Origin: Nereocystis luetkeana
Lineage: Eukaryota; Sar; Phaeophyceae; Laminariales; Laminariaceae
Direction of reading: 5' to 3'
NCBI GenBank assembly: GCA_031213475.1
Contig: JARUPZ010000002.1
Coordinates: forward strand, 1,426,001-1,490,000
Length of the DNA: 64,000 nt
Of this stretch, positions 421 to 45,100 are shown piece by piece. The position numbers and the translations under genes were made by a program. Positions within the stretch are counted from its first letter, which is position 1. Each line of letters starts with the position of its first letter. Below the pieces are notes generated by a model. The model saw nothing but the letters and a program-made list of their open reading frames with translations, ran no database searches and was not told the DNA's origin.

Positions 421-3400
421 ACGGAGATGTGGTTGGTTTTCCACGATGAAGGCATGTCCCTGCGACACTACCTCTACACCGAGCGAGAGGCGAAGGGGTT
501 CGTCCTGCACGGTCAAAGCAACTTTTGGAGGGACATGCGCCTTGATCCCAAGGGGCCAGAGGTGGGGGCGAGCTTTTTTTTTTTCCCATCTTTTTGGGCG
601 GTTACCACGGCTGGCAGTCGAGTTATAGACCGTGTGTGCGGGGAGGAGAGCCTTGACTCCGCACAAGGGAAGTGATTGTATCGCGTAGTGTGTACCGAGT
701 ATATGGTAGGGCACCCACGAGGAAGTTGCACCGTATACCCATTGCTGTTTCTGGAAAGTGACGACACCAGAAAACAAATCAATTCGTTCGAAGCTTGTCG
801 TCCATTTCAAGCCCGCCTAGGAGGCGGTTCTTAGCAGGATGCAGCTCACCCTTCATGCTACTCGCCCAACACGTCACGGCGCTTCGCGCTTTGCTCAAGG
901 AATGCCTGCCTGGTCAGTAAAAACCCGACGTGCTTCGTCCCGGCGTTGTAGGGATGCGAGGGTCTATGGTCATACGACTACAGCCATGCCTGATATCGAG
1001 GACACCCCCCCCAACGCTCCCACTGGAATTTGACGCCTATCCCTTTATAGACCCTTTACAATCAAAACTCCATGGTTCGTGTGGGAACCGATCGGATATC
1101 GAATTGATCCGCGCTGAAGGGTAAGGGCTAGCTAGCGACAGAAGTACGACAGCACAGAGCCTGTCTGGTTATTTGCCGAAGCCCCTGTCGACGGGGAGGG
1201 GGAGGGGGGCGGGACGGGGGGGGGCACTCATTTGTTGCTTGCCTTCGGAATTTTACCATTGACCACGCATCCCTTTCGAGGCGGAGCACCGTTCCTACTC
1301 CTAAAAGAGACACCGCCGATAGTTGGGCGCTCATTACGTTGTTTCTATTTAATGCATAGGAAGGGCTTGCTAATCTGGATAAATTATGTCGCGTGCGGCC
1401 TTTTTGTTTAACCCCCGCCTTCCCGGTCCCCCCCCCTCGCCTCCTTGTACAAAAAAACGTCAACCTCGTGCGTTGGTTTCGGGCTTAGAAAAACTTTCCA
1501 GGACTTTTCGAGTTAACGCTGTGCCTTAATTTCGTGTTGTTACTCGTAAGGAATACCAGGTACCAGGCAGCCCTTGTTCGATTCCATTTATTATTATTTG
1601 GCGTCGTTGGCGGGATTTTACCAGGCCCGATTCCACCCTACACCACCACTACCACCTTCCCGTTCGACCCCCCCCCCCCCCCCCCTCCCACAGGCGGCGA
1701 AACAGGAAGGAGATGAGACTAGCAGAAAGGTTCTATGTGCTATATGGGGATAACGTAATGAGCACCCAAATGTTGGAGGTGTCCCTGTCGGGAGCAAGAA
1801 CGGAGTGCTCCGTCTTAAAAAGGATGCGTGGTTCAATGGTCAAATTACTAAGGCTAGAACCCCCCCCCCCCGCGCGCGCCCGGGCGCTTCACAGGTAATG
1901 AAGACGATCCTGCGGCAAATCTTGGAGGGGACGCGGTTCCTCCACGGACGAGGGATTCTCCACCGAGACCTCAAGCCTTCCAACCTAATCGTCTCGATAC
2001 CCCCGCCGACTCAATCCCGCCGCGCGAACGCCAGTGGCGGCGCAGCCGCCGCCGCCGCTGCCACCCCGAGGGCCGGCGAACGCGCGGGGGAATGGCAGCA
2101 GTCCTACCCTGCCACGGCGACCACGACGCCGGTCATGGCCGGGACGGGTCGGGGTTGGGGTTGGGGTACGGCCGGCGTCGTCGGAGGCAGCAGCAGCAGC
2201 AGTACCAGCAGCAGCAGCAGCAAAAGGAGGCGGAGGGGAGGGGGGGAACGGGAGCGGGAGCGGGAGCGGGAGGGTACCGGCAACGAGCACGGGCGTTCGT
2301 CGGCGTCGTCATCAGCGGCGGCAGCGGCGGCGGCGGCGGCGACGGCAACGGCGTCTTCGCCTGTACTGTTGAGGGTTTCCGATTTTTCGAGCGCGGTGGA
2401 CGAGGGGGCGATGGCCGCCGGGCTGTACGGGGCAGGTGGGCCGGCACAAGGAGAGGAGACGCTGCAGTACGCGCCGCCGGAAGTGCTGTTCAATTCGGAG
2501 GTGAGGGTGGGCTCGAAACTCGCTGAGGGTACCTGGTACATGCTTTACCACTCGTTCGAGAAAATTGTTGACACGTCCTGTGTACGAGACCGAGCAGACC
2601 TAACCTTAGTTCTAGCCCTGAGCCAAAGCCAATCAGACCCGATCAAAGCATGGTCAGCGTTTAGTCCTCCTCGTCTCGTACACAACAGTGCGTGTCAACC
2701 AGTTTCTCGGATACGTGGTAAAAGCTCTGCTCAAGCCGCTTGGCCTGGAAGGGCCCGAGTGCTTTTTGCCTCCTCACTTCCGTACGTCTATCTGTCGTTT
2801 CTTGTCTCCCCCCCCCCCCCACCCCCCGATGTGGGTAGGCATAAAATAATATACTGTGCAAACAAGCAGGTGAGGTAAACACGGGAATAGCTACCTTAAG
2901 AGCACAGAACGGTAGAACAGTTGGTAGTTCGAAGGGGTAAAGGGGAGTACTAGTGGAGCATTACCGTAAGCTAGGAACGCCCACTGCCAACGAAACGTTC
3001 GACGCGGAATTCGTGGAGGAAATCAACGCCTGGGCAGAGGCGAACGTAGATGCATCAGACAGGGAAGATAATGGTTCAGAAGGGTTACAAAGAGAGCTCA
3101 TAAGGGAAGAAGTAAATAAGTGCGTAGCTAGACTTAAAAATAGAAGACAGCAGGGGCGATACTAGGTAGTGAATGAATTCATGAAGTACGGGGGAGAAGG
3201 AATGCTAACCATGACGATTAGGTTATATAACTGGATATGGAAAAACGAGTGTGCACCTAGGAGGTGGAGAGAAGGAGTAGTAGTGAACTTGTTGAAGAAA
3301 GTGGATAAGTCTGACCCGGGAAACTATAAAAAGATGACGCTATTAAACACAGTAGGCAAAACATTTTGTAAGATTTTGAACGATAGGATGGGAACAATGA

Positions 3401-6400
3401 TGGAGAAGGAAGACAAAATAAGCGAAGGGCAAGGAGGGTTTAGGCCAAGCCGTATCTGCGTAGACCATGTGTACACTCTAGGTAAGATAATCCAAGGTAG
3501 GAAAGACGGGGGGCTAGCAACGTACTGTTTCTTTCTAGATGTACAAAAGGCCTACGACAAAGTAGGGAGAAATGGATTGTGGAAAAAAACTGTGGGAAAT
3601 AGCTGGTAGGAATCAGAGGGAAGATGGGGAGAATGATGAAAGATATGACGGAATGCGCGTGAAGTGCTGTGATGCTGGACGGGGAAGTATTGAAGTATGT
3701 TGGTATTTTTAGAAGGAGTTACGGAGGGATGTACGTTGCCACCTAACCTGTCCAACACATATATTAACGACCTGATAAGTAGCAGGCAAAGCAGCAAGGC
3801 AGGGAGTCACGGTAGGGGGAGATACGGTGTCAGTGTTGATGTTTGCGGATGGAGATAGAACACCCGAAGGATCGCAGAAAAAAAATAGAAAACGCGCCAT
3901 AATAGACTATTACGGGGGACCATAGTTAATAGGACCAAATATTGTCAGTAAAAATAGGTAAATATAAAGGTTTTTGTGTTGAACGTAAGTCCTATTTACT
4001 ATGGCTCCCCGTAATAGGAAGTGGAGGGTGACGGCGAAGGTCAAGAAATGCGCAGTAGTTGTATGTATCGAAGATAAGGTGACCCCAGTAAATTTCAGTT
4101 GAAAGTGGGGAGAAGATGAATTGCCCATGGTAGATCAGTATACGGATCTTGGCGTAGATATATCAAAAGCCTGCTCTTGGGATACACACATAGCAAAAGC
4201 AATAGGAAAGGGTAACACGCACGTAGGCAAGATAGATGCCGATCTTAACAGACTCGCACCTGAACACTAGGATGAAAAGATGTATCCAGATGAATGTGAT
4301 AGTGCTCAGGCTAGAATGTGCAGGAGCAGTATGGGAAGGGAACGCGAAGCGCGTAGAACAGTTGGAAACAATACAGATGACCACAGCTAAATGCCAAGAA
4401 GCTCAAGTACGACTAGCGATACAGACAGTATGAAGAGAAGAAGTGGGAATGTACCCACTCAAGACAAAAAGAGACTGACGAGAACGTTGAATTTGCAATA
4501 TGAAGTAAGGAACATTGCCAAAAAAGAGGTTGCCAGCTATAGTTGATAAGAGCTGAATGGAAAAAAGTAACAAAAGGGCGAGCTGGAATATGGTGGGATA
4601 GCGCAGTTGAGAAAGTATGGAAGGATATAGGGGGAAACCAAGGAGACATGATGTCCGCAGATAAGTTTGGGAGGTACAAGGCAGGAGTAGAATATACCTG
4701 GTATAGTAGTAAGAAGGGAAAGGCTTCGTAGCGCTCAGAAACAAGGTGAAATCGGAGACGGGGGATTAAGCGAAGGGATAAGAATAAAAACGTATTTGCA
4801 CGGCCCAATGGACTTCGCAAAAAAGCTGAAATTGCGAGTTCGTGTGGGTGACCTGGACCTGCCAGAAAGAAAAAAGAGGTATGTATACCTGTAGCCGGGA
4901 GGAGGAGGAGGAAATAGATGCGTAGATGGGACCGTGTGGCAAAGTAATAGAGAGTAGAATTCACATATAGTAGTAGGAGAATGTGATATGTACAATGAGG
5001 AACGGGATACGTCAAGAAGAGGAGATGAGGCAAATAGACAAGTGTGATATGGAGGAGTTTGGTACACTACATAGCAGCGATAAAACGATCGCTATCCTAG
5101 GAGACAGATGGTGGCCACAGGCGGCGAAACAGGAAGGGGGTGAGATTAACAAAATAAAACTATGTAATATATGAGAACAACGTGATGATCGCCCAACTGT
5201 TGGAGGTGTCTCTTTTCGGAGTAGGAATGGTGCTCCGTCTCGAAAGGGATGCGTAGTCAATCGTGAGGCAAGCAGCAAATGAACACGCCCCCACCCCCCC
5301 GCCTGCAACTGCTGGACTGTGTGATGACCCCAGCGCAACTCCTCTCGCTCGCGCGACCACCCCCCCCTTCCCCCTTTCACCGTCCCTGATTATGTTGATT
5401 CTTGATTGGTTTGGGGGCGACGATGGCTCATTGGCTGGTGGCGACGTCTGATTGGCTGGTGGTGGCGTCTGATTGGCTGGTGGTGGCGTCTGATTGGCTG
5501 GTGGCGGCGACCTCTGATTGGCTGGTGGTGGCGTCTGATTGGCCGGCGACGGCATGTGATTGGCTGGTGGCGGCTTCTGATTGGCTGGTGTGGCTTCTGA
5601 CTGGCTGGTGGTGGCGTCTGATTGGCTGGCGGCGGCGGAATTTTGTGTGCGTGCGGATCGATGCCACTGCTCCGTTCAGACGGCCTACTCCGAGAAGCGG
5701 CCGGAGTCTTACGATGTGTGGTCCATTGGGGTCATCCTGCTCGAGCTTATCCTAGGGACTCCCGAGGTGACGTGTTTTTATGCAATAACGAGTAAGCTAT
5801 CCGTCTTCTTCTTGCGGCTGAGGCGACCGCGCCGCCGGTGGCACCGTCGCAAGATGAAAATGTTTTAGTTCTTGCTGCTTCGGCTTTGCTTATTCAACGG
5901 CTCGCGATCACATGTGCTTAACCTCTTTTCTGTTGTCCCTGCCTTCCCCTCCCCCCCCCTAGACTCGCACCTTGACACTAGGATTAAGAGACATATCCTG
6001 ATGAGTGTGATTGCACCAAAGCTAGAATATGCAAGAGAAGCATGGGAAGGGAAAGCGAAGCTCGTGAAACAGTACAGATGACAGTAGGTGAAAAAATACT
6101 AGGATGCTCAAGTACGACTAGTAATACCAGGTACCGTATTGAGAGCAGAACTGGGAATGTACCCACTCAAGACAAGCTGAGACGTGAGAAAGTTGAAATT
6201 GTAATATAAAAAGTAAGGGACTTCCAGCCATAGCTGACGGAGCTGTGTGGGAGAAAGTAACAAAAGGTCGAGCTGGAATAAGGTGGGATAGCGTAGTCGA
6301 GAAAGTATGGAAGGATATAGGAGCAAACCAACAAGAGATGCTGTCCGCAGAGAACTTTGGGAGGTGCAAGGTAGAAGAAGAAGAAAACATAAAACGAAGG

Positions 6401-9400
6401 GAAAGGCTAGCGCTAAGAAATAAGGTGAAGTCGGAGAAACGCTCAGAGTAGTACGGGGGATTAAGCGAAGCGATAGGAATGAAAAGGTATTTGCACGGCC
6501 CAATAGACTTTCGCGAAAATGCTGAAACTGCGATTTCGTGTAGGTGACCTGGACCTGCCAGAAAGAAGAAAGAGGTATGCCAGTGGTCGGGGGAAGGAGG
6601 ACTTAGATGCACCGATGTGCCCATGTGGCAAAATAATACCAGGTAGAGATCAGAATTCGCATACTCGTAGTGGGAGAATGTGATATGTACAAGGAGGGAC
6701 GGGATGTATTTTAAAGAGGAGATGAGGAAAATAGACTAATGTGACATGGAGGAGTTTGGTACCCTAGACAGCAGCGAGAAGACGATCGCTATCCTAGCAG
6801 ATAGATGGTGGCCACAGGCGGCGACATAGGAAGGGGTGTGGACTAGCAAAATGTTTCTACAGTATGCTTTATATGGAAATAGCGTAATGAGCGCCCAACT
6901 GTTGGCAGTGTTGCTCCGTCTCGAATGGGATGCGTGGTCAATGGTCAAATGCCTAAGGCAAGCCACAAGTGCGTACCCCCCCCCCCCCCCCCACTCCCCC
7001 TGCCCCCCACCCTACCCCCTGCCATCGTGCACGCCTCCCCCCCTCCATTCACGCCTCCGTAGGTGTTCACGGTGGACCAACGTACCCGCGCGATTCTGGA
7101 TCGTGACCTAGCTTTCGAGGAAGACGCGGTGCGAGCTAAGGCACACCTGCTCGCGGCTATGGCAGACATGTGAGCGTCGCGACGAGACAACCCTCCTCCC
7201 CCCGACGAACTCACCCTTATTTCATACTACCATCAAACTGAAATGTCATCATTTCGTAAAAGGACCTGCGGTAGATCCCGCAGATCATTCACAGATCAGG
7301 AACCTATTTGTCCGAAACGATCTAAGTCATGAAATAGGGATCTGATATGTTCAACGTGTGCACCTTTACACACGAGAAGGGATAATTATAGAAGGTTCGG
7401 ACGAGAGACCACTGCTGCGTTTTGTTGTTAGAGAGATACCGGCATGTTTTTGTGACTGTCGAAAGCGTGGACACAGCCCGTGGGAGGCAGTGCGCCGAGA
7501 GCAACCACCGTGTAGGCGGACAAGCCCACGTCGGAACAGAGGTGAACAGACTTGCAAGAACAACAGCTAAAACCAAGAAGTTATCGATTACGAAGTTGAT
7601 TCCTTTCGGGAGATTAGAAACGCTAACAAAAATGGCTTCTACAAGTGCATACAACTCTAGACGGAAATACAAGGACCGGTTGATCTTCATGTTGATGGCT
7701 AAACGATCATTATATTCTCGGTCAGATTGGTATGCTATATCGTAGGGCCACAACTTTGCAATACGATACCTGGTATATATTTATTTTAATCACCTTGGGG
7801 AGTGAAATATTTCTAGTTTTGGAGCTCTGCGGCCCTCGATCTGCACTATCTGTGTGCCTTGTGCCTCCATGGGGCGTGTGCTTATTCGACACCGTGACAC
7901 TTCGGGGTGGGTGTTGAGACATCGAAGCCACTATCGTGCCACCAGCGTCATTGCCGTCGTCGTCGTCGTCGTCGTCACCCCCCCCACCCCCCGCCCGCCT
8001 CACTTACGCCTTAGTATAGGTTTCCACAGCATAAACGAAGGCGGTGCGACACTCTCATTATGAGCCAGGGTTGCACCGTTATCGTAACGCTAGCGTCGTT
8101 GTCGTCCCTCCCCCCTCTCCGGCATTGTGGGGGTGCGAGGTACATGGTCGTAACCCCACGGCCATGCATGAGATGAGTACACCGCCTCCCCTCCCCCCTC
8201 TCCGTCTCGAAAGGATTGCGTGGTCAAATGGTCAAATCTCGAAAGGATTGCGTGGTCAAATGGTCAAATGAGTAAGGCAAGCAGCAAATGAGTGTAACTA
8301 CCCGCCGCGTCACTCCCGCCTTTGTATGGGTTTCCGCAGCAGTATATGCGGTATACAGCGAAGGGAATTACCACTGAATCCTCCCTCGGATGCCGCTACG
8401 TTTTGATTTCGATAGGTGCATCTACTCGCGGTCGGGTCACAGCAGCGGAGGCGGTAGCGAGAGGGCGGGGGTGGGGAAAGGGAACGGCAGGCGCCCTCGT
8501 CACACTCACGCCTACGGCCATGGTGATGGCGGTGGCGGCGGTGGGGGTGGTGACGGTGGAGGCGGTAGCGGGGGGGGTATTGGGGACGCGACAGGGTACA
8601 GCGAGTGGTCGCACTGGCCTCTTGGAGATAGGGCGGTCGTGGACGAGAGGTGCACTTTGGCGGAGCTAGGGAAGGCCGTGCACACGAGGGATGCGCTCGA
8701 TATCGGGTTTCCTGACCAGGTGGGGGTGGATTCGTCGGGGTGGGCGTCGGGGTGGGGCCTGTATGGGTGAGGTTTTTGGTTTGTGGTGGGGTGGTGGCGG
8801 GATGTTTGCCGTGTCGCTTCGTCAAGTTCAGTTTGGGTCAGAGGCGAGGGGGGGGTGTTGTTGTCTTTGTCGTTGTTATTGTTATTGTGGTAGCAATTAT
8901 TAACCCAGTCTGTGGTCGTAAGACACGTCCTTTTTTTACTCATCTACAACTCCCGTCTCGCCGATAGTTTCCCGTCTCCGCTGCGAACTCCTGCGCGCTC
9001 GTTCCATGTTTGGCTTTCTGCTGCTGCGTTCTCAGTGGGGACTGGATCTGCTGTGGCGCCTCTTGCGGTGGGACGCTCTTGAGCGTATCTCCGTGGCCGA
9101 TGCCCTTGAGCACGCCTATTTCGTCGGTCCTTTCATCAGCCTCCGAGACGGATCTGCGCACGCTACCCGAAGGTGTTGGGAGGGGAGGAGGGGATGCTGA
9201 ATAGACTTGTCTCTATTTTGTGTTTGTCGTTGCTCGAGACGTGCTGGGTTGTGTTGTGTGCGCTGGTTGTGGTGGTGGTGGTGGTGTAATCAGACGTTGT
9301 GTTTCTGTGGGCTCGAAAACAGAATGGCAGGAACATAAGGCGATGAAAAGCGTAAGGGACACGACGGAAGACATGGTCGTTCGGAGGAAAGCGCGCGAGA

Positions 9401-12400
9401 CGAACACTCCACTTACCTACCATGCTGCTGTTAAATATTTGACAACATTGTGAGTATCAGCTCCGCTATCTCAGAGCCTCAGCAGTAGTGCCGGTTTGGT
9501 CGAAATCAACCGCTTGCCGCCCTTTCGAAAAGGGATCTGGCACCCCCGCCCCCCTTCCCTGGCCATTTTGCACGACGCCAACACCTGCGAAAATTGTCGA
9601 GTCACCCTATTACATACCAGGGTACCGGTCCACTTTAAATACGCTTCTCACTCATCTGCAACCCCCTTCCCTCCCAGCCTCCGGCCGTCCCTATCTACCC
9701 CCCCACCCCTCCCGGTGCTCCTCTTCGAAAGGGAAGAGTGGTCCATGGTCGAATTACTAAGGCAAGCAACAAATTGGTACGCCCCCCCCCCCCCGCCGCC
9801 CCCGCCAATCCCTCCCTCCCCTTCCCTCCCTTCCTTCCCCCCCACCCGCTCCCACCCTTGCTCCCTGTCGGCACGCATGCAGGGAGGCAATGACGTACGA
9901 TGGTTGGTTCACCGGCTCGAAGAGGATGGACCCGAACACGCTCGTTTTACGGCCGCGACCATCCCCGCACGCGACGCTCTGGGGTGCCGCATCCAGCGGC
10001 GAGGGGTTTCACGACGAAGATGGCGTTTTTGATGGCCGGGATAACGGAGACGCGGGGAGGCTCGTGACCTCGTCGGTATCGGGGGCGGCGGCGGCGGCGG
10101 CAGCGGTGGCAGAGGGAAAACACTCGTTCACGCTGGACCATCAGCACACCCTGGACCTAAAGTACACCTGTCCAAAGGTATTTTTGTTGTTTCGCTGGCT
10201 GTGATTGCCCTTGGCGGATGTCGTTTCGTTTGATTTTTTTGGGGGGGTTTTACGTTTTTATTCTCCGCACTCCAAAAGTGTCTTGAGACTGTCTTTTGTG
10301 GGACCATGAATAACGTTTTGGCGGTGATAACAGCTTCTATACATTGTTTTGCGGAGCTGTGTGCAGTGGCGGTACGCGTGCTACTTGCCTCCGGTACGAA
10401 GTAGCTGTCAGGTCAAATATATTCCAGAAGTGGAGATGCCGCAGCGGTTGATAGTTAGGGAGGTCGGATGATCGTGGCAGCTAGTGGGCACATGAACCCT
10501 CCTCCTCGATTCCGGCTGGTGCGGTTCATAGATGATCGTGGCAACTAGTGGGCACATGAACCCTCATGCTCGATTCCGGCTGGTGCGGTTCATAGGTCTG
10601 CGCGTTACAGCATCCCCTCACAACCCTCCCTGATCGTCATCAAAGCTTTTGGAAGGGAATATGAAGCCACCATCGTGCGGAGCGTCCCCTATACCGCCAC
10701 GCTGTGCGCTTTTGTTTTCGCGCGTTCGTGTTTGACACCGTAGAAAGTTTCACTGAAAAAAGTGTGGGCGCCACCCCACCCCACGCCACCCCACCCCATC
10801 CCCTCCCATCCCACGCCTCCCCCGTGCCACCGCCGCCGCCGCCCCCGCCACGCCCGCGACATATGCCCGCTTTCTCGCGGCCGAACCGTCCAGTGCAACC
10901 GCACGTTCGAGCTGTGGAAGAGCTGCTACAACCACGTCGTCGGCCGGAAGCACTCGTCTTTTTGTCAGTACGATACCTCGTCACTGCCGCCTTGTGTCAG
11001 CAGCCACTCCATGTGAGGCACACCGCCGGCAGGGTATGATGAAGATATTCAAAACATGCATATAAAGCTGTCTTCGCTTGTGTTCAGGTTGTCCTTGCTG
11101 GTCTGTAGGTTTGCTGGTCGTCAGGTTGTCTGTGCTGGTCGTTATGGTGTCTTTGCTGGTTGTCAGGTTGGCTTTGGTGGTTGTTAGGTGGTCTTCGCTG
11201 GTCGTTAGGCTGTCTACGCTGGCAGTTAGCTTGCCTTCACTGGCGTTCGCTTGTTTTCCCTGGCGATTATCGCTTGTGCACGCTGGTCGTTAGCCTGTCT
11301 TCGTTGGTCGTTAGCTTGTCTTTGCTGGTCGCTAGCGTAATTTTCTGCCCGCTATCATAGATAACTTTTCGGGAGAGACATCTTCCCGCGGGCTGTTCGA
11401 AGGGAGACAACACTGCTGCTCGCTCTCTTTTTTTTCCGGCTGCTTTATGTTCTTGTTGTCGGCGTCACCACTGTCGCCACGTCGCCCCGATGCGCTTGTC
11501 GCTCGCGCTTGCGCTCGCTAGGCTGCCGTTCGACCCCCACTCGGGTTGGTGCGACGTTCAGGGGAGGAGATCGAGGATCGAAGACTACCACTCCATCGTT
11601 TTTCAGGTATGATATATTACACCGGTGTATGTTACGTCGTTTTATTCTGCGCATAGTGCGCGTGTAATGTACACAGCACATAGAGAACACGCGATACATG
11701 TTGGCCATACAGGGCACACATAACATACAGCGCATGCGTCACGTACAGCACCTAAATCGCGTAAAGCGCACACGACACATACAGCGCATACAGCACATGC
11801 AGCACACACGGGGTATGTATCACGCACAGGGCATACCTAACAAAATAACATACAGCACATACATATATCGTGTGAAGCGCTTACGGCGCATACAGCGCAT
11901 GCATCACATACACACATAAAATACATGCAGCACATACAACACACACCACATAATGTCGCGTACAGCGCATACATCACACAAAGAGTGTGCACACCATACA
12001 GCGCCTACAACACATACAGGGCATACATCGTATAAAGTGCATACAGCACATACAGCGCATACATCACAAAAAATAAAGCGCATACAGCACATACCCGGGG
12101 TACAACGCATACACTACACAACATCGCATACAGCGCATAGATCGCATACAGGGCGTGCAGATCATACAACACTCACAGCGCATGGGTGGATGTATCCAAT
12201 CAGCAGACGGAGCCGCCACATGCCTGCAGTGGAGCAACGTTCCACGAACGGGTGTGGAAGGCGTGCGTATCAAGAGCGAGTCGCGGCTTTAGCGGTTGAC
12301 ACAACAACAGTAGATCCTACTGCGGGAGCAGCAGCTCCTACCACGGTGGCAGCAGCTCCTATTTTGGCGGCAGTAGCTCCTATCACGGCGGTAGTAGCTC

Positions 12401-15400
12401 CTGTTATGGCGGCAGTAGCTCCTATTGTGGCGGCAATAGCTCCTATCACGGCGGTAGTAGCTCCTACCACGGTGGCAGCAGCTCCTACTTTGGCGGCAGT
12501 AGCTCCTATTGTGGCGGTAGTAGCTCCTATCACGGCGGTAGTAGCTCCTGTTATGGCGGCAGTAGCTCCTATTGTGGCGGCAGTAGCTCCTATCACGGCG
12601 GTAGTAGCTCCTGTTATGGCGGCAGTAGCTCCTATTACGGCGGCAGTAGCTCCTATCACGGCGGTAGTAGCTCCTATTATGACGGCAGTAGCTCCTATGT
12701 CGGCGGCAGTAGCTCCGATTCCGACGGCAGTAGCTCTTGTTGCGGCGGCAGAGAGTATCGCCGTCGCTTTTTTGCCGCTCCACGCTGAACTAAAGTGAGG
12801 CGCGCTGGCCAGTGCGCTCCGGCGGGCGTCTTTTCGTGTCTCTCGGCATTGCTGCGTGCGCGCATTTTCATGGTTGAGCTCTCTCTATTTCTCAGGGTGC
12901 TTCGGCGTTGTTTTTTCTCCGCCTCAACGGTCGTTTGATGCCTCCCCCCCCCCCCCCCCCCCCCTCCTCACGGCGCTTCGCGCTTGGTGCAAGCAGTGTC
13001 GGCCTGGTCGGTGAAAACCCGACGTGCTCCGTCCCGGCATTGTAGGGATGCGAAGGTCTATGGTCATATGACTACGGCCATGAATGACATGAAAACTCCC
13101 CCCGACCTCTATATTTTATATCTGGTATATATAGGTTGGGTTGGCGTCGGTTGGCGACGATGCTGTAAAACTGTAAAACACGCCTCTCACTGCGTGAGCT
13201 CCTGTAGACCAGCGTACCGTTTTTTTCTCGTTTTTTTTTGGCGGTCACCACGGCTGGCGGTCGAGTTAGACCATTTGTGCGGGGAGAACATTAAGTCCGC
13301 ACAAGGGGGGTGATCGTACCACGTATTGTGTATATGGTAAGGCACCCACCACGCAGTTACATAGTACTCCCGTTGCTGTCTCTGGAAGTGGCCACACCAG
13401 AAAAATAAATCAATTAATTGACGCTGTCATCCATATGCAAGATACTCCGCCTCAAAAACGGTTCTTAGTAGGATGCAGCTCACCCTTCATGCAACTCGCC
13501 GGACACCTCACGGCTCTCGCGCTTGGTTGGGGCAAGCAATGTCTGCCTGGTCGGTGAAAACCGGACATGCTCCGTCCCGACATTGTAGGGATGCGAGTGT
13601 CTATGGTCATACGACCACGGCCATGCATGAGATCGAGTACACCCCCCCCCCCCAACACCTCCCCCTCCCTGACCATGCATAACATCGAGTACAACCCCAC
13701 CCCCCCCCCCTCCCTCGTATTTCCTGACCCTGCCATACTCTCTCTTTACCCCGTACCCCCTCCCCCCGCCCCTCTTTAATGTCCCACAACCGTACTTTTT
13801 CTGAGACCCCTTATTTGAAGAGCTCCGTACGTCACCCGTCAATGAGCTTAAGACTTGGAGAACTTATGCAGGCTTGAACCGACTAACAACCCCATGGTCT
13901 AGGAGACGAAAAATATTGTGCAACAACACCTACGGGAAACACTGTATACACCCTATTTTGTCTCTTGCTCGTGCTCCCCTAACCCCCACTCCCCCCTCTC
14001 CCCACCCCCCCCCCCCTCGCCCGCTCCTTGCCTTCCAGGAAGAGTACAAGTTTTACGGCGTGTTTGACGGGCATTGCGGCACCCGCGCCGCCAAATTCAC
14101 CTCCCGCGCGCTGCACCTCAACCTCGACCTGTTCCTCAACGCACAAAAGTCCGACGACAGTTACGTCCACGGCCATGGTCACGGTCACGGTCACGGTCAA
14201 GGTCAAGGTCAAGGTCACGACCCCGGCGCCCTCCCCGACCGACACGCCTCCGTGGAGCGCGCTGTCCGCGCCGCGTTCCACAAGACCCAGAGGGATTTCC
14301 TGGACTTGGTGCAACACAGCGCTGGGGCAGGTAACGCTTCTGGTGCGGCTAGCGTGGCCAATGGAGCTGCGGGAGCTGCGGGAGCTGCGGGAGCTGCGGG
14401 AGCTGCGGGAACCGCGGGAGCTGGCGGAGCTTTTATGCCTCAGAACGGTGACGGCGCCCCTCCGATTTATACCGCCGCGGATGTCATCGCGAGAGGCGCC
14501 GGGGGCGGAAGAGGAGCGGGGGGGGGCGGAAGAGGAGCGGGGGGGGGCGGGGGGGCGGGGGCGGGGGGGGCGGCGGTGGATGACAGCGGGACGACCGCTA
14601 CCGTTGCATTGGTTTACCCAGATGTGACGGTGATCGCTCATGTTGGGGACTCGAGGGCGGTGATGTGTTGCGATGACGCCGGCCGCGCCGTCGAGCTTAC
14701 CGAAGGTGACTCAGTCGGTGACTGCACTCGGTCGGTAGATCGAAAGGTCGATCTTTCCGTCCGTCGAGATTTCCGGTCTAGGCACGTATTTCGAGGACAA
14801 ACAGAGGACGTAACTCGGGCGTCCCAGGTGCCAGGCGCGGTCGCAGGCGTATAGGCGCATATGCATATAGGGGAACAAAGAACGGGAGAGGTGATGTTCT
14901 GTTGGTGCAGTGCCGACGACGCCATAACTTCGGTAAGGTTCGCTCTGCTCCGGCTGGGTTTTTTTTTTCTCATACCTACATGAGAGCGTTTCTTTCTTGA
15001 AGAAGACATATATTCGCATAATTTTGGCGACCGTGAGATGCAGGGTCAGCCAATAGCCGTGGGGGGCGTACGTCAGCGATTGTGTTTGCATGGCTCCCAG
15101 ATCGATCCTGTGGTACGCTGTCTGCTCAATCTCCTATACCTGCACATCTTCCATCTTTCGGGAGATTCGTCGGAATTTTACGATTTTTTCATCGCAAGTT
15201 TCCTGAGTAACTTCTTCGAAAAGTTCCTTCGGATTTTTTTTTTCGGATTTTTCTTCGGAAGTTTCTCCGGATTTTTCTTCGGATTTGTTTTTGGTTCTCG
15301 GGTAGCTTTCCCTCACCTCACCCCCCCCCCCCCCCCCACCTCCCCCCCCGCGCCCCCTCCCCCTCCCCCTCCCCACCTTCATTCTTGCATGCGATTTTTC

Positions 15401-16257
15401 GCCTTTTTTTCGCCCCTCTTGGCATCGTTGCGGCTGCCGCGACAGACCACACGCCCTACAGCGCGGGAGAGCGCACGCGCGTGGAGGCTAACGGTGGCAC
15501 GGTGGAGCACAGGGGCGTCCTTCGCGTGAACGGGGAGCTTGCGGTGACGCGAACCATAGGCAACCGCCGCCTAAGCCGCGGTGGGGTGTTGTCCTCCGAG
15601 CCCGACGTGGTGTTCGTCTCCCACCGTGACAGCGGTAGTGGTGGTGGTGATGGTGGTGGTGATGGCGGTGGGGGTGGGAGGGGGGAGGGGGGTGGGGATA
15701 GGGGAGGGGGGGGTGGGGGGGTGCCCGGGGGCGGGGGTGGCGGTGGTAGAACTACGGCGTTCTACGGAAATTACCATCAGCGGAGGGATTCGTCCGGTCG
15801 TGATGACAACCTTGGGGTCGGTGGTGGTGGTGGTGGTGGTGGTGGTGGTGGGGGTGATGGGGGTGATGGGGGTGGTGGTGGTGGTGGTGGTGGTGGTGAT
15901 GATGACAGTGGTGGTGGCGGCAGTGGCAACATCAGCAGGGCGGCTTTCTTGGTGGTTGCCTCCGACGGGCTGTGGGACGTGGTGTCTAGCCAAGAGGCCG
16001 TCGACATGGTCAAAGAAGTTATCGCCGGTGCTTCCTACCTCCCGGGAGAAAAGGGAGACGTGGCAAGCGCAGCGCCAGGGCCGGGAAGGGGGACGAGGCA
16101 GGAGGAACAGCCGCCAGGGAGGGTGGCGAGAAGTTACGGTTTCTACGCTCCTTGGCAGGCGTTTCAGGTGGCGGCGACCGCGCTCACCCACGAGGCTTAC
16201 GTTCGAGGTAGCACCGACAATATCGGTGTGTGCGTGATCGACTTGCGGCATCACTGA
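421..16257 (+). CDS. Protein kinase - C2H2 zinc finger - PP2C phosphatase fusion (5' partial)
   Basis: A signalling protein with opposing activities in one chain. Exons read: 421-561, 1895-2500, 5680-5766, 7063-7169, 8416-8719, 9036-9172, 9883-10177, 10894-11012, 11522-11606, 14039-14705, 15446-16257. They total 3360 nt and keep frame at all ten junctions, including the phase-2 and phase-1 ones, with a TGA stop at 16255-16257. In-window residues 1-460 are a kinase domain from subdomain V on, 557-579 a C2H2 finger, and about 600-1119 PP2C. The kinase half matches, as I remember it, the plant PP2C-kinase proteins of the At3g63330/At3g63340 type, motif by motif through the C-lobe. In those plant proteins I recall the phosphatase lying N-terminal, so the order here would be reversed. 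Introns carry LINE and R1 repeats. Poly-Ala, Ser, Arg/Glu and Gly inserts sit between motifs. Exon borders rest on reading alone; no transcript was available. Confidence 0.85.
571..1012 (+). repeat. R1 interspersed repeat, long copy
   Basis: Begins at a poly(T) tract, then GGCGGTTACCACGGCTGG, TCCGCACAAGGGAAG, GGTTCTTAGCAGGATGCAGC and ends GATATCGAGGACACCCCCCC. It starts about 10 bases after the donor at 562. No coding potential recognised. Confidence 0.78.
1215..1400 (-). mobile_element. LINE 3'-end fragment
   Basis: Read on minus: ...GGAGCACCGTTCCTAC in reverse, then GGCAAGCAACAAATGAGTGC and a run of C. Matches the last ~180 bp of LINE copies A and B. It sits in the first in-window intron of the kinase gene. 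Confidence 0.75.
1686..1872 (+). mobile_element. LINE 3'-end fragment next to a 3' splice site
   Basis: Starts CACAGGCGGCGAAACAGGAA as in copy A and runs through ATGTTGGAGGTGTCCCTGTC to a poly(C) tail at 1861-1871. The acceptor of kinase exon 1895 follows only 22 bases later. Confidence 0.78.
2953..5290 (+). mobile_element. Non-LTR retrotransposon (LINE), degraded copy A
   Basis: 3169-3609 encodes the first half of a reverse transcriptase: SDPGNYKKMTLLNTVGKTFC, SEGQGGFRPSRICVDHVYTL and the motif-A segment FFLDVQKAYDKVGRNGLW. The frame then breaks. Near 3839 the active-site box reads FADGD, with the second Asp of FADD lost. Further fragments cover the LINE C-terminal part and a Cys-rich finger region, and a 3' end ending in poly(C) near 5290. 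It lies sense-oriented in the kinase gene intron 2501-5679 and is certainly inactive. Confidence 0.85.
3910..4014. mobile_element. TA-flanked 105-bp MITE, copy 1 (nested in LINE copy A)
   Basis: Terminal inverted repeats TTACGGGGGACCATAG and CTATGGCTCCCCGTAA, with TA on each side. It interrupts the LINE copy shortly after its reverse-transcriptase active-site region, so it arrived after the LINE. Confidence 0.8.
5428..5635. repeat. 21-bp minisatellite carrying CCAAT-box words
   Basis: About ten units of TCTGATTGGCTGGTGGTGGCG with variants. Each holds GATTGGCT, the inverse of AGCCAATC. It lies in kinase intron 2501-5679, ending about 45 bases before exon 5680. All three plus frames are open here, which is a repeat effect. 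Confidence 0.85.
5960..6990 (+). mobile_element. LINE copy B, 5'-truncated
   Basis: Matches the last part of copy A: a stretch beginning GACTCGCACCTTGACACTAG, a frame encoding GAVWEKVTKGRAGIRWDSVV-type sequence (6240-6450), the MCPCGK-type Cys motif near 6620, then the shared 3' end with a long poly(C) tail at 6977-6993. Sense-oriented in the kinase gene intron 5767-7062. Confidence 0.82.
8120..8185 (+). repeat. R1 3'-end scrap
   Basis: GGCATTGTGGGGGTGCGAGG, then GGCCATGCATGAGATGAGTA and CACC. Matches only the last ~65 bp of R1. Upstream of kinase exon 8416. Confidence 0.55.
8196..8292 (+). mobile_element. LINE 3'-end scrap with internal duplication
   Basis: TCTCGAAAGGATTGCGTGG is present twice in a row, followed by AAGGCAAGCAGCAAATGAGT, the LINE 3' terminus. 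No poly(C) run here. Upstream of kinase exon 8416. Confidence 0.7.
9718..9795 (+). mobile_element. LINE 3'-end scrap with poly(C)
   Basis: TCGAAAGGGAAGAGTGGTCC, then AAGGCAAGCAACAAATTGG and a run of C interrupted by G. The C-rich sequence continues to the acceptor of kinase exon 9883. Confidence 0.7.
10169..10953 (+). other. C2H2 zinc finger created across an intron junction
   Basis: Exon 9883-10177 ends with codons for Cys-Pro-Lys and exon 10894-11012 starts with Cys. Spliced, they give CPKCNRTFELWKSCYNH followed by VVGRKH, which is C-x2-C-x12-H-x5-H with Phe and Leu/Trp near the usual core positions. The finger lies between kinase and phosphatase and could bind nucleic acid or a protein partner. 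Both splice sites (AAG|GTATTT and GTCCAG|TGC) are phase 0, and the downstream junction into the PP2C exon also keeps frame. A chance C2H2 is possible but spacing and core residues fit the family well. Confidence 0.72.
10467..10597. repeat. 64-bp tandem duplication
   Basis: GATGATCGTGGCAGCTAGTG at 10467 recurs at 10531 with few changes, each followed by GGGCACATGAACCCTC. Intronic, between kinase-gene exons 9883-10177 and 10894-11012. Confidence 0.85.
11085..11340. repeat. Degenerate minisatellite (GCTGGTCGTTAGGTTGTCTTT)-like
   Basis: About twelve units of 20-24 bp with the core GCTGGTCGTTAG. Lies in the intron before the first PP2C exon (11522). Confidence 0.8.
11655..12185. repeat. Degenerate CATACAGCGC-type tandem array
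   Basis: Dozens of 10-11 bp units (CATACAGCGC, CATACAGCAC, CATACATCAC). Open frames across it encode only repeat peptides and are not called as genes. Intronic in the PP2C part. Confidence 0.82.
12300..12750. repeat. 21-bp minisatellite, about 21 units
   Basis: Unit GTAGCTCCTATCACGGCGGTA with variants. It is open in several frames and gives heptad peptides (AVVAPIT on plus, GATAAVI on minus). Same intron as the CATACAGCGC array. The long plus frame 11953-12798 is just these two repeats. Confidence 0.85.
12965..13100 (+). repeat. R1 repeat, 5'-truncated
   Basis: Starts CTCACGGCGCTTCGCGCTTG and ends GACATGAAAACTCCCCCC. Immediately followed by a longer R1 copy in the same orientation, in kinase-PP2C intron 11607-14038. 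Confidence 0.72.
13110..13710 (+). repeat. R1 repeat, near full length
   Basis: Starts near GGTTGGGTTGGCGTCGGTTG, passes GCTGTAAAAC, a T-rich tract, GCGGTCACCACGGCTGGC, then ends GAGATCGAGTACACCCCCCC with a partial repeat of the end (CATGCATAACATCGAGTAC) and more C. One of the two longest copies. Confidence 0.8.
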
Positions 16258-39100: not shown

Positions 39101-42100
39101 AGGAGTTTGTTGAAGGCTACTGTACTCGTACTAATATTTCGGGGGGGGGCGGAAATCAGAACCAAATCCGGTGTGTGCACATACTGTAGGGGGATGATCT
39201 GTTTTTTTTTGCGTCTATATCGTGTGTTCTGATTTCTATCCCCCCCTATGATAGCGAGCGTCAAGAGCGCCGTGACCCGGCATGTTTGCCCTTCTAAGGC
39301 TTGTTGTGTTCATGCTATTGAAGCAGTCCGCGAGGACTGTCTGGGCGATGTCGTCGTCCTCACGTCCGTTGCGGACTCTTGCGTTCGTGCCTGGGACCCG
39401 CACAACACTCAAACTCGAAGGAACGAGGGGATAGAGAGTGTCTACCCTTTCGCGCTTGGGACGGGGGTGGGGGGGGGCGTCACACACTCGGATAGATTAT
39501 CTACAGATAGATCATCCCCACCTAATGATCTAGATGTTTCAGGGCAGATAGATATATTCCTGATCTGTATGATTTGAATCATCTGCATGATCTAGCTCAT
39601 GTCGCCAAGTGGAAGCCGTACAACCTGCATGATCTGGAGTACGTATTTTCTGGGATGGATATGTACTACAGTACACAGATCCTGCCGACATCTCATTACG
39701 ACAGGTTACGATCTAGATGGTCTACGAGGACCTAGATCGTGATGAAAGGTTAAGTTAGTCTAACAGCCTAACGCCGACACCGTGTATACCCCCTCGTCTT
39801 CTACCAACCCCTGCATGTGTGCCTACCGCCTTCCAGGTCGCCAAGACAACCCTAAGAAGAGTCGACGACGCAGAATTTGGGCGTTTCAACAACGGGGACG
39901 TTTATTTGGTGATGCACGCGGTCCACGGGACCTCCGGCGCAGACCCCGGCGGAGCCAATGGGAACACCGGCGGTAACGTCAACACGGTGACCCGCACCCT
40001 GTTCTACTGGGTGGGGTCGAAGGCTTCTATGGACAAGGGGACGGTGGCGTGCATCAAGGCGGTCGAGCTTAGGAGGGCGCTACCGGGCCCGTGCTCGATC
40101 CGGAGGGAGGACGAGGGCCAGGAGAGCCCCGAGTTTTTGGTCCTGTTCGATGAGGTCACGGTCAAGGAGGAGGAGTCTGGGCCCCGGGTGCTGACCAAGG
40201 TGGGAGGATGGATTAGGGGAGGGGGGGGGGGGGAGAGGGATTGGATGGAGGGGGGGTCGGAGGGGGGGGGGTGTACTCATGTCATGCATGGCCGTAGTGT
40301 TACGACAATAGACCCTCGTATCCCTACAATGCGGAGACGGAACACGTCGGGTTTTCAACCGACCAGGCAGACGTCGCTCAGGGAGAAGGGGGGGGAGGGG
40401 GAGGAAGGGGATTGGGGTTGGGGGCGGGAGAAGACGCGATGGATGCTGGAGGGAGGAGTCGGGGGATGCTGAGTGGGGAGGATGAGGCGGTAGATACTTG
40501 GGTGGTGGGGGGAGGGGTGGTGGGGGGGGGCGGCGAGAAGGGTGGGAGGGAATAAAGAGAGATGGTTTATGTTTAGACGGCTTGCCCTCCTTTTATGCAC
40601 TACTGCAAAAATATATCCAACTCTTGCTGCTCGTAGTTAGTTCGTGCCACGATACCACGAAACGTGGATGCAGTCGGGACGTCGGTGGTGGCCGAGCCCT
40701 GGAAGTGGAGGGCGGGCGTTTTAGGCGGTCTGGGATGTTTCGTAGATGCGGAGGCGTTTCGCGCTCGAGGTGCTCGGGTTTTTTCGTAGGTTTTGGTGTT
40801 TCGTTGTTTCGTTGGGCTGTGTGTCTGCGGGAGCGGTGGTCCTAGCCCTTGGTATGAATAAGGACGAGCGGAGGAAGCTACGTTCATAGCGAAGTGGGTA
40901 TGAAGCAATCGAAGCGCAAGAATATGTCCGGTCCTGGTGGGTATGGCTGGGGTGCATTACGTGGAGGAAGGTGGAGGGAAAGAGGGAGCAGGGGCGGGCT
41001 CGGCTCAGCCGCCGTTGCAGTGCCGTGAGGTGCTGTTCTTTCGCTTTTGCTCGTTCGCTTTTGCACTAACCGTTTGTTGTGCAGTCATTCTGTTCGGTAG
41101 TTTTGGCTGGTCGTTTTTCCTGATCTATCATTTTGTTTGGTCATTTTGTTCATCTGTCCGGCCATGTTTTTGTTTTTTCTTCGTTCGTTTTCCGCTGCAA
41201 CATTTTTTTGTCGTTCGGTTTCTTTGCTCCTCGGTTGTCAAGGTCAAGAAATGGAACGAGCAGCCCCCAATCATGTACTCGGTGAGAATACGCCCCCCGA
41301 CGAAGGTGATAAATAACGCCGCTGACGGCGATGGAGACCCGGGGACACCTAAAAGCAGTCCCCGCCCTGTAACTCCTCGTCGGCCACTGCATTCCTCCTT
41401 CACGGTGGGTCGGATCGACCTCGACGAGGACCAGCTAGGGAGCGGGCGAGTCCTGCTCGTGGACGACCGAAACGGCCATATTTACCTTTGGTGCGGCAAC
41501 ATGTCGACGTTCAAGCACCGCGGCTTTGGGCTGGAGGCGGCAACGCGGGTGAAGGCTGACAGCCCGAAGGGCGGACAGGTGACGCCTTGCACACGTCGAA
41601 AAAAATCAGATCAAGTCAGACCCCTGTTTCTCTATCTAGATATTTCGGGACAGACAGATCAAACATATCCCTGATTTGTATGATGTACATTATTTGTGAT
41701 ATTACTGTTATTTTTTTGTTCTAACGTTTCGCCGAGTTGGGGTCTGTATGGCACGGCTTTTTTTTGCGCACATTTTTTTTGCCCGGTTGGGGTCTACTTA
41801 AGTACATGTTTCGGCTCTTTCCACAGCATCTCATAGCGGCAACAGCGGCATCTGCAGTAGATGATATATCTCTAGATGATCTATCAACAGATGATGATCT
41901 ATCAATAGATTATCTAGATGATTTATAGATAGATGGTGATTTGCCCGATGTATGGAGCCTTGTGTTTGTTGGTTGGTGGTAACTTTTTGTCCGCTGCCAC
42001 CACCACCGCCCCCGGCGGCCTTCATGGTCAGGAGAAACGGGACGAGTTAGATGGGGGTGGGGGTGGGATGGGGGGGGCTGGACAAGTAATTGGGGTGGAG

Positions 42101-45100
42101 TGGGTTGGGTAGGATGGGGTGAAGTGGGGTGGGGTTGGGCGAGACGGCTGGCACCCCTGCGGAGAGAGGGTTGCGGACGGAGCACAGACATCAGTGTTCT
42201 GATTGGCTGAAATGTGTTGCCGTCGTAACGATCGAGTGGCATGCGTCGCAGGCCGAAGACGGTGCTGCTTTCGCTAGTGGCGAGGCTTTCCCTCGACCTT
42301 ATAGGCCATCGCGCGCCGTTGCGCAGTCCAATAGCGAAAGCAAATCTGCTCGTTTGAGCCTCCCTCCCTCCCTCCCTCCCTCCCTCCCTCCCTCCCTCCC
42401 TCCCTCCCTCCCTCCCTCCCTCCCTCCCTCCCTCCCTCCCTCCCTCCCTCCCTCCCTCCCTCCCTCCCTCCCTCCCTCCCTCCCTCCCTCCCTCCATCCC
42501 CCCCCCATTCCCACCTCCTTCGCTTCCGCAAGGTGGTGCAAGTTGACGAGGACGACGAGCCCCCCGAGCTCCGGCGCATCCTAGACCGCGCCCGCAAGCA
42601 GCGCCTGCTGGAGCTCCAAGTGCGCGCCGCCGAGGGGGACGAGAATGGGGCGGAGGAGGAGGGAGCCGAGCAGCGCCGCATGTCGCTCATGGGGGCGAGC
42701 GCGGAGGGGGCGGGGCCTGCGGTGTCGCTGTTCCGGGTTACCCAGGCGGAGGGCAGCCTGCAGCTGTCGCTGGTCGCGTGCACGAGTCGGCAGTATATCG
42801 CTGAGATCGGCGGGGATGAGCTGGAGCCGGAGGAGGTGAGACTACTGCGGGTACTGCGTGCCTTGCTGTTGGTGTGAAAAGTCTCTCAAGTCTGCGTTAC
42901 TTGGGAGACGTTTTGTCGGTGTACTTTTATTTTAGTGCGTGTTGGCATTTTTTTTAATGAATTTATTATGCTGCGAGAATTAACCAATTTTAAGTTCCAA
43001 CGCCTTTCGCCCGAAACCCGGCGTGCGGTTGACACAATGATCGCACGTCATCACCCCGATATTCGGTATTCCTGGTGTTCGATTCCCCCGCACTTTCCTA
43101 CCCGGCATGTACGTACGCACTCAAATCGAACAAAAGATTACCTCAAGCTTCCCCCCCCCGTCCCCCCGCCGCCGCCGCCGCCGCCGCCGCCGCTGCCAAC
43201 CTAGGACGGAGACCCGATGCTGTCGATGCTGGAGAGAGACGCCGCGTTTATCCTTGACGTATTCACGGAAGTCTTCGTCTGGTACGGCGAGGACGCCGAG
43301 CGCACGGCGCGCATCGGCGCGGTAAAGGTCGCCCACCAGCTCGTGCACGCGGTGGCACGCCCGCACTGGGCGGAAGAGATCACGCACGTGCGCGACAACC
43401 GCGAGCCGTTCCTCTTCCGCGTGAAGTTTTTCGACTGGGGGGTGGCGCCCAGAGGCCAGGTGCAGGGCCCGATGAACTGCATCACCACGTTCCACAAGGC
43501 GATCCGGACGATCGCCGAGGTCCGGCACGACCCGGAGACGGAAGTGGAGTTGAGGTCGACGGACGTGCTGGTTCGGGGGGTCGGGGTTGATTTGCCGGCT
43601 CCCGCTGACGCTGCGGTGGCGACGGCGGGCGCTGGGACGGACGAAGGTTACGGGGAGCTGCTGATGTGGAGGGTTCATCCGAGGGGGCTGGTGTCCGTGC
43701 CCGAGGAGGAGTTTGGGCACATGCAGAGCACGCACAGGTGAGGGTTGTCTGCGTACTTCCCCTGACCCCGCCCCTCCCCTGCCTCCCACTCCGAAACCGC
43801 CGCCGACCTGACCCGATCCTGCCCGACTTATTCCGACCCATCGCACCCCGCCCTACTCTGTATTTGGAAGCAGTGTGTTTCCTCGACGTGCATTCTAAAG
43901 GGGCTAACTAACGGTGCTCCGGAAGCAGTAGTGTTTACGAATTGGCCGTGCTTCGACACGATGGTTGGTTGTCCACACTAACTCTTCATTACACATAAAT
44001 TCCGAGAGTATTCCCAGGCGGTCGGGGTTTGGCTCCGTGTCAGGGCTTTACAGTTGTGTTCATTCCAACCAGTTTTGTCGAAGCTAACCCCATTAAGGTC
44101 TATGTACAGCCTTCACTGGGACTCAACACCTGACGAGAGAAGCAGGGAGGGTGGGGGGGGGGGGGGGTTGCTCCTCTTCCTTGTTGTTTTGTTCCTACTC
44201 CCAACAGCAGCGTTACCTGCAAGCCCGATAGCTACGATGGTGCCTTCTGTTCCTTTCAGTCTGTTATCTATCTCTGCTCCGGCGTGCGCGTTCGTCTTCC
44301 TACGCGATAATTGCTCTATACGTAAAGGCGCTGCCTACCAGGGGCTGCTACCACGCTTTTTGAGAGTTATAAACATGCCATCATCTCTCTCGCGCCAATC
44401 ATGGCAACATTTTTTGTAAAAAAAATGTATTTGCAAGCCTCTCACTTTTTGTTGTTCGTCGATTTTCCTTGTTTTATGTCTTCTCACATGTGTTTTGTTC
44501 TCGATTCTCCGGGTTTTTCTTGCGCCCTCCCTTTCCCACGCGTGTCGCCTCCCTCTGTCCAAACCAGCTACGTGTTCTTGTACGGCCACGATGCGGCCGA
44601 TGGCGGGGACTATGACGATGATGACGAGGCGTCGGATCAAGAAGGGGTCGACAGCGTCAAGGACGACGGCGATGGCGGCGGCAGCGGCGACGGGAAGAGC
44701 AGTTCTGACTCATCGGACCACGATTCCGTGCTCGCGGGTTTCGACGCGCGAACAGGCGGTACGGATGATGACGACGATGACGAGGAGGAGGAGGAGGGGG
44801 AGGAGGAAGGGGAGGGGGGTGGAGAGGGCGACGGAACCACCGGTAGGGGAAAGCGAACCGGAACAAACGGGAGGCGAAAGTCTTCTCGCGCAAACGGTAG
44901 CAGCAGCCGCGGCGGCGGTGGCGGCCGTGATAAGGCGAGGGAGTCGTCGGGAACGCCGACGAAAGGTGGCGGCGCCGGCGCGGGTGGAGCGGACGGTAGC
45001 AGCCGGCGGAAGACGATGTTCGCCGAGATGAAGCGGGAGAGCATGGCGGGGACGTTGCAGCAGGTGGGAGGGCGGCAACGGCCTAGGCGATCGCTCTCTG

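Follow-up and report, generated by a model that had tools for sequence, protein, structure and literature searches.

A protein kinase and a PP2C phosphatase bridged by a C2H2 zinc finger in one predicted gene of Nereocystis luetkeana and its stramenopile relatives

Proteins that combine a protein kinase with a PP2C phosphatase are described from plants and oomycetes. According to a survey of rice and Arabidopsis PP2C proteins, AT2G40860, Os01g36080 and Os11g37540 contain kinase domains (PMC2612031), and VTC3, which is needed for ascorbate in Arabidopsis, has both domains (PMC12675267). Four kinases with PP2C domains are reported from Phytophthora infestans (PMC3019232), and the oomycete phosphatome contains five kinase-bearing PPMs of P. 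sojae, for each of which read mapping backs a single transcript according to the legend of figure S2 (PMC10925823). Because such proteins have been described, the fusion of the two enzymes as such is not new. VTC3 is presumably the product of At2g40860 and is taken here to be kinase-first. The gene considered here lies in a window of 64,000 nucleotides (the whole stretch of DNA that was analysed) from the brown alga Nereocystis luetkeana, contig JARUPZ010000002.1 (GCA_031213475.1), positions 1426001-1490000. It encodes a kinase, a C2H2 zinc finger and a PP2C in one frame, and no account of a finger between a kinase and a PP2C was found in the open-licence literature. The reading which is held to be reasonably probable as a whole is that of a single gene of a stramenopile family, whose product would be an enzyme of the secretory membranes with a structural finger joint and a PP2C limiting the kinase, the fusions of plants and stramenopiles having arisen separately.

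On the forward strand of the window, eleven exons form a single reading frame of exactly 3360 nt that ends at one stop, the product has 1119 aa, and all ten introns among them are of the GT-AG type. Splicing of the window DNA thus reproduces what the original prediction, made from the letters alone, had proposed. Pfam finds a PP2C domain (PF00481, E 1.4e-36), with its core motifs, and a Pkinase domain (E 4.8e-18), both past the cut-off. The single frame, these domains and the finger pattern bear out the predicted order of kinase, finger and phosphatase in one protein. The profile check suggested along with that prediction confirmed the two enzymes and not the finger: in the window protein, as in the five kinase-first relatives scanned, all Pfam finger models (PF00096 and relatives) were under the cut-off; a scan with NCBIfam gave matches under the cut-off only.

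Because the Pfam matches were under the cut-off, the finger was tested by a family profile and by structure models. Its sequence, CPKCNRTFELWKSCYNHVVGRKH, fits C-x2-C-x3-F-x8-H-x5-H, with ligands spaced as C-x2-C-x12-H-x5-H, which is the spacing of U1/JAZ-type fingers. The PROSITE-style finger pattern occurs in 0 of 2000 shuffles of the window protein. The two Cys and two His of the finger, together with further Cys and His residues of the linker, are invariant in 18 aligned members (the window protein and 17 relatives picked among the finger-bearing ones). Among the PDB chains matched by the family profile are C2H2 chains such as ZNF622 (E 0.011) and the RNA-editing protein MP42 (E 8e-4); their whole-chain E-values are raised by repeated fingers, the single finger matches being weak. 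In the AlphaFold models of P0010 (mean predicted local distance difference test, pLDDT, 79.2; predicted template modelling score, pTM, 0.75) and of the Ectocarpus protein P0001 (72.6 and 0.63), the finger forms two short strands and a helix with block means of 88-94. The beta-beta-alpha shape of a classical C2H2 finger is therefore seen on the models of relatives, and its ligand spacing is present. Ligand pattern, family conservation, profile matches and models agree with the proposal of a C2H2-type bridge, and the finger is a conserved domain overlooked by the Pfam cut-offs in the members scanned.

The family was delimited by three protein homologue searches, for which 68 of 68, 120 of 388 and 120 of 277 matches were listed. 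Together they comprise 280 different proteins, to which all counts below refer. Each search scored about 8000 candidates sharing most words, so the absence of other lineages from the matches does not imply that they lack the family. Sorted by domain profile, 137 of the proteins are kinase-first, 121 PP2C-first, 20 kinase only and 2 PP2C only; the profile count was used in place of a motif count because motifs left 85 of the 280 unassigned. The kinase-first proteins, mostly metagenome sequences, hold the finger pattern in 130 of 137 cases, in all 130 between the two enzymes, and the pattern is found in 0 of the 121 PP2C-first proteins. The latter were nearly all drawn from a plant seed, and their uniformity is therefore expected.

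The nearest protein found is that of Ectocarpus sp., with 68% identity over 90% of the compact query. Named kinase-first members come from Ectocarpus, Chrysoparadoxa, Tribonema, Aureococcus and Pythium, and, among the matches listed, from the diatoms Odontella, Seminavis, Nitzschia, Thalassiosira, Pseudo-nitzschia and Chaetoceros. The lineages of six members were looked up and are all stramenopile; the remaining named members are presumably stramenopile too. Two record names already hint at the parts, 'C2H2-type domain-containing protein' in Odontella and 'linked kinase-associated serine/threonine phosphatase 2C' in Seminavis. Eight transcript-derived members have the kinase part and the PP2C on one sequence, seven of them with the regular finger pattern; the kinase profile is complete in five, and P0035, P0254 and P0260 start inside it. 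Compared with P0001, the window protein is identical at 256 of 341 aligned residues in the kinase part (107 gap columns), at 274 of 379 in the PP2C (147 gap columns) and at 48 of 53 across finger and linker, with no gap. It follows the family linker consensus FCxYDxxxLPxC...SGxCDxQGRRxxIED and has all the family traits tested: the kinase-finger-PP2C order in one frame, the linker and the N-terminal hydrophobic segment. The search of stramenopiles proposed with the original prediction thus recovered the same order in Ectocarpus, Tribonema, Pythium and diatoms. The suggestion that the bridge stands outside any described family holds in that no description was found; it is shared by several stramenopile classes, however, and is not a one-off.

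Kinase-first proteins without the regular pattern differ in kind. P0048 is placed outside the family by both the kinase and the PP2C trees, and P0206 and P0026 have C-x1-C in place of C-x2-C. Chrysoparadoxa P0003 looks mis-modelled right after the first two Cys, and in P0280 the region is missing.

The exons, all on the forward strand, follow the domain order. The kinase hinge and the next segment (TEMWLVFHDEGMSLRHYLYT...) lie in the exon at 421..561, and the exon at 1895..2500 contains the HRDLKPSN catalytic loop, a low-complexity insert, DFS in place of DFG, and APPE. The C-lobe continues through the exons at 5680..5766 (DVWSIG), 7063..7169 (VFTVDQRTRAIL) and 8416..8719, the last with a Gly-rich insert, and the domain ends in 9036..9172 (WGLDLLWRLLRWD...ALEHAYF). 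The exon at 9883..10177 encodes a linker and, at 10169-10177, the three opening residues of the finger, CPK. The exon at 10894..11012 carries the remaining finger (CNRTF...GRKH, 10894-10953) and, according to the sequence and the alignment of relatives, the conserved FCQYDTSSLPPC linker. The PP2C starts in 11522..11606 (GWCDVQGRRSRIEDYHS). By sequence and Pfam, its core (VFDGHCG, SGTTAT, VGDSRAV) lies in 14039..14705, and its end (RVNGELAVTR, ASDGLWD, STDNIG) with the stop in 15446..16257. The intron 2501-5679 contains a reverse-transcriptase fragment (RVT_1, E 9.4e-9; 3166-3609, forward strand), which is probably LINE-like. Short tandem repeats of the GATTGGCTGGTGG and GGCGGCAGTAGCTCCTA types, recognised by eye, occur in introns at about 5400-5640 and 12300-12780, outside the spliced protein.

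Position 421 is not the gene start. The exon there comes after an AG and opens within the kinase hinge (TEMWLVF); it is an internal exon, and the gene begins left of the window. Similarity to protein P0002 of Ectocarpus fasciculatus located exons with the GGSHGEVW Gly-rich loop, the VLKR lysine and the hydrophobic N-terminus between roughly -9691 and -2094 in window coordinates, the start codon being unproven. The kinase N-lobe and the N-terminus comprise about five exons, reaching up to 9.7 kb left of the window. One chain of splice sites, in which the acceptor of the second exon is one choice among several, adds 387 in-frame residues without a stop, for about 1506 aa and about 16 exons in total. 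The hydrophobic segment encoded there has an 11-mer hydropathy of 2.55.

The layout of the protein would be a hydrophobic N-terminus, a CMGC-like Ser/Thr kinase, one C2H2 finger with a Cys-containing linker, and a complete PP2C. The CMGC-like character is suggested by CDK chains as the best kinase matches in the PDB and by the name CMGC-GSKL of one plant (Helianthus) record. Kinase activity is predicted from the motifs of the window gene, which has HRDLKPSN, the Asp of DFS and the VLKR lysine. The PP2C fold is seen on the model of P0010, for which the PDB comparison listed PP2C chains (range 572-857). The PP2C would limit or reverse the action of the kinase, either on the activation segment of the kinase itself or on substrates that both enzymes share. 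The self-resetting module of the original prediction is likewise a hypothesis. The finger would be a zinc-stabilised structural joint that sets the kinase against the phosphatase, and not a reader of nucleic acid.

The location is addressed by the N-termini of proteins that start with M and hold the start of the first domain (80 of 130 kinase-first, 118 of 121 PP2C-first). Of the 80 kinase-first members, 59 have a hydrophobic 11-mer within the first 60 residues (shuffled mean 19.5, maximum 27), as do 113 of the 118 PP2C-first members (23.4 and 35) and 2 of 19 other matches (3.0 and 7). By eye, some of these N-termini resemble cleavable signal peptides and others anchors. Where the segment is present, the N side is more positive in 53 of 60 kinase-first proteins (2 are opposite and 5 tie; this set includes P0002 as an addition) and in 95 of 113 PP2C-first ones (6 are opposite and 12 tie). 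This pattern suggests that the catalytic part is lumenal. The protein would sit at or within the secretory membrane system. Membrane or secretory placement is predicted with moderate confidence.

Several observations weigh against this picture. In P0039 of Aureococcus and its relative P0030 (80% identical), the ligands of the finger are lost and other parts of the linker are kept; this is a natural finger-less version, and the finger is therefore dispensable in these two. The hydrophobic segment is missing in 21 of the 80 kinase-first members. The N-terminus of the window protein has a charge of 1 on its N side and of 3 on its C side, and the two sides are equal in P0002, so that a lumenal side is unsupported in brown algae. 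N-glycosylation sequons are enriched in the plant PP2C-first set (9.6 against 6.2 for the reversed motif) and not in the kinase-first set (5.2 against 6.5), which therefore gives no backing for a lumenal place in algae. DFS replaces DFG in 111 of the 130 listed finger-bearing members, the exact HRDxKPSN occurs in 91 and a GGSHG-type loop in 77 of them (partial sequences included), and the Pythium model P0038 lacks HRD. Finally, the model of P0002 ends with ...LKYTCPKVGSGWVL, at the position of the border between exons 7 and 8.

The kinases of plants and stramenopiles form one family: the two groups are united at 100/100 in a tree whose outgroup was 12 generic kinases, other CMGC kinases being left out, and the window kinase has median scores of 154 bits against plant fused kinases, 173 against kinase-first relatives and at most 62 against the generic kinases found. 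One ancient kinase-PP2C fusion with a later swap of order, instead of two separate fusions, is somewhat unlikely. In its favour, uniting the two PP2C sets was not rejected by the approximately unbiased (AU) test, at p 0.064, at 0.072 without the longest rows and at 0.275 without PPM1K. With plant fused PP2Cs, however, the scores of the window PP2C have a median of 50 and a maximum of 66 bits; with three other PP2C matches they are 60-61, and a rice stand-alone PP2C reaches 69 bits with the whole protein as query. Against a HAB1 variant, the kinase-first PP2C of P0018 scores 86 bits and the plant fused PP2C of P0044 98 bits. In the PP2C tree, where long branches are in play, the plant fused PP2Cs join PPM1K at 96/93, apart from the stramenopile ones; in the kinase tree P0046, in which no PP2C was detected, sits with the plant kinases at 95/91. 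The PP2C tree favours separate fusions without settling the matter; fusion of this kinase with a PP2C probably took place twice, at one end of the kinase in plants and at the other in stramenopiles. As side observations, P0046 is possibly an unfused relative, and plant PP2C-first proteins (P0042-P0045 and others) have a motif like GESSTCLTVYKEGGAPAVFQSPKCPRW, with two conserved Cys, directly after the signal-peptide-like stretch.

That the protein is a signalling enzyme of the cytosol or nucleus, with a finger docking on nucleic acid or on a partner protein, is unlikely. The resemblance of the finger profile to the nucleic-acid-binding chains of ZNF622 and MP42 speaks for it, as do the members without a hydrophobic N-terminus and the window charges, which lean to a cytosolic catalytic part. 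There is one finger only, however, signal-peptide-like N-termini occur in the kinase-first and PP2C-first branches alike, and conservation runs from the finger through the linker into the start of the PP2C, as would be expected for a structural joint. The DNA docking raised originally is made less likely by the single finger, its U1/JAZ-like spacing and the mostly signal-peptide-like N-termini of full-length relatives. The favoured reading is a kinase/phosphatase placed at the membrane or in the lumen, in which the finger is structural.

The kinase may instead be a pseudokinase that holds substrates or regulates the phosphatase, with the PP2C alone active, which seems rather unlikely. The frequent DFS and the name of a plant relative, 'Probable inactive protein kinase At3g63330', suggest it, and the P. 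infestans kinome paper suggests that in two other kinase-PP2C proteins the inactive kinase serves to bind substrates (PMC3019232). Against it stand the catalytic loop, the DFS aspartate and the VLKR lysine of the window gene, and the PP2C-first members, with DFGS and HRDxKPEN each in 117 of 121.

That the kinase and the PP2C are two adjacent genes merely appearing fused, as the end of P0002, the long introns and the reverse-transcriptase fragment in one of them could suggest, is very improbable. It was rejected since the finger lies on both sides of the presumed border, in a stretch gaplessly matched by a single-protein Ectocarpus model, and the eight transcript-derived relatives cross it through the linker. 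Both domains are also present in the 137 kinase-first proteins (P0048 outside the family among them), and P0002 sits on a contig of 18.5 kb, where a cut-short model arises easily and may read into the intron.

Elsewhere in the window, gelsolin repeats pass the Pfam cut-off in three open frames of the forward strand (39759-40469, 40904-41671 and 43205-43738), probably exons of one villin/gelsolin gene.

If the predicted secretory placement of the kinase-finger-PP2C protein is true, the family offers candidates for the missing kinases that phosphorylate secreted and wall proteins in algae and plants. Plants are without the animal enzyme FAM20C (PMC12292773), and in a diatom only about one fourth of the silaffin kinase activity comes from the known kinase associated with the endoplasmic reticulum (ER) (review PMC3820600). 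A further-reaching version appears doubtful: a write-and-erase enzyme on the lumen side, unrelated to FAM20C, fused separately in stramenopiles and land plants at opposite ends, the stramenopile one with a zinc-finger joint, that could phosphorylate secreted proteins, wall and silica proteins for instance. Should the two enzymes have been combined twice, in opposite orders, their pairing as such must be useful, and a comparison of both builds would reveal what a kinase-phosphatase fusion requires.

Compared with known systems, the At3g63330/At3g63340 type of plants is the closest. It shares the kinase family (100/100; window kinase up to 172 bits), a PP2C in the same protein and a signal-peptide-like N-terminus (113 of 118 listed). 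It differs in having the PP2C first, as stated in the original prediction and seen in the 121 listed PP2C-first proteins, in the absence of the finger (0 of 121), in DFG instead of DFS, and in a PP2C that apparently belongs to another branch. VTC3, compared by description only, likewise has a Ser/Thr kinase and a PP2C in one protein, and a finger is not mentioned in the available part of its description (PMC12675267). The oomycete proteins also hold both enzymes in one stramenopile protein; at least PITG_08304 and PITG_09375 differ by cyclic-nucleotide-binding domains and an inactive kinase, and 'zinc finger' occurs 0 times in the main text, as available, of either paper (PMC3019232, PMC10925823). 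Because the Pythium member P0038 exists, some other oomycete kinase-PP2C proteins could belong to the family. The silaffin kinase tpSTK1 of Thalassiosira, associated with the ER and Golgi, is comparable in being a kinase of the diatom secretory system that carries a signal peptide; it is a protein of 60 kDa, for which a PP2C is unmentioned in the portion of the review at hand (PMC4557024), the comparison being by description only.
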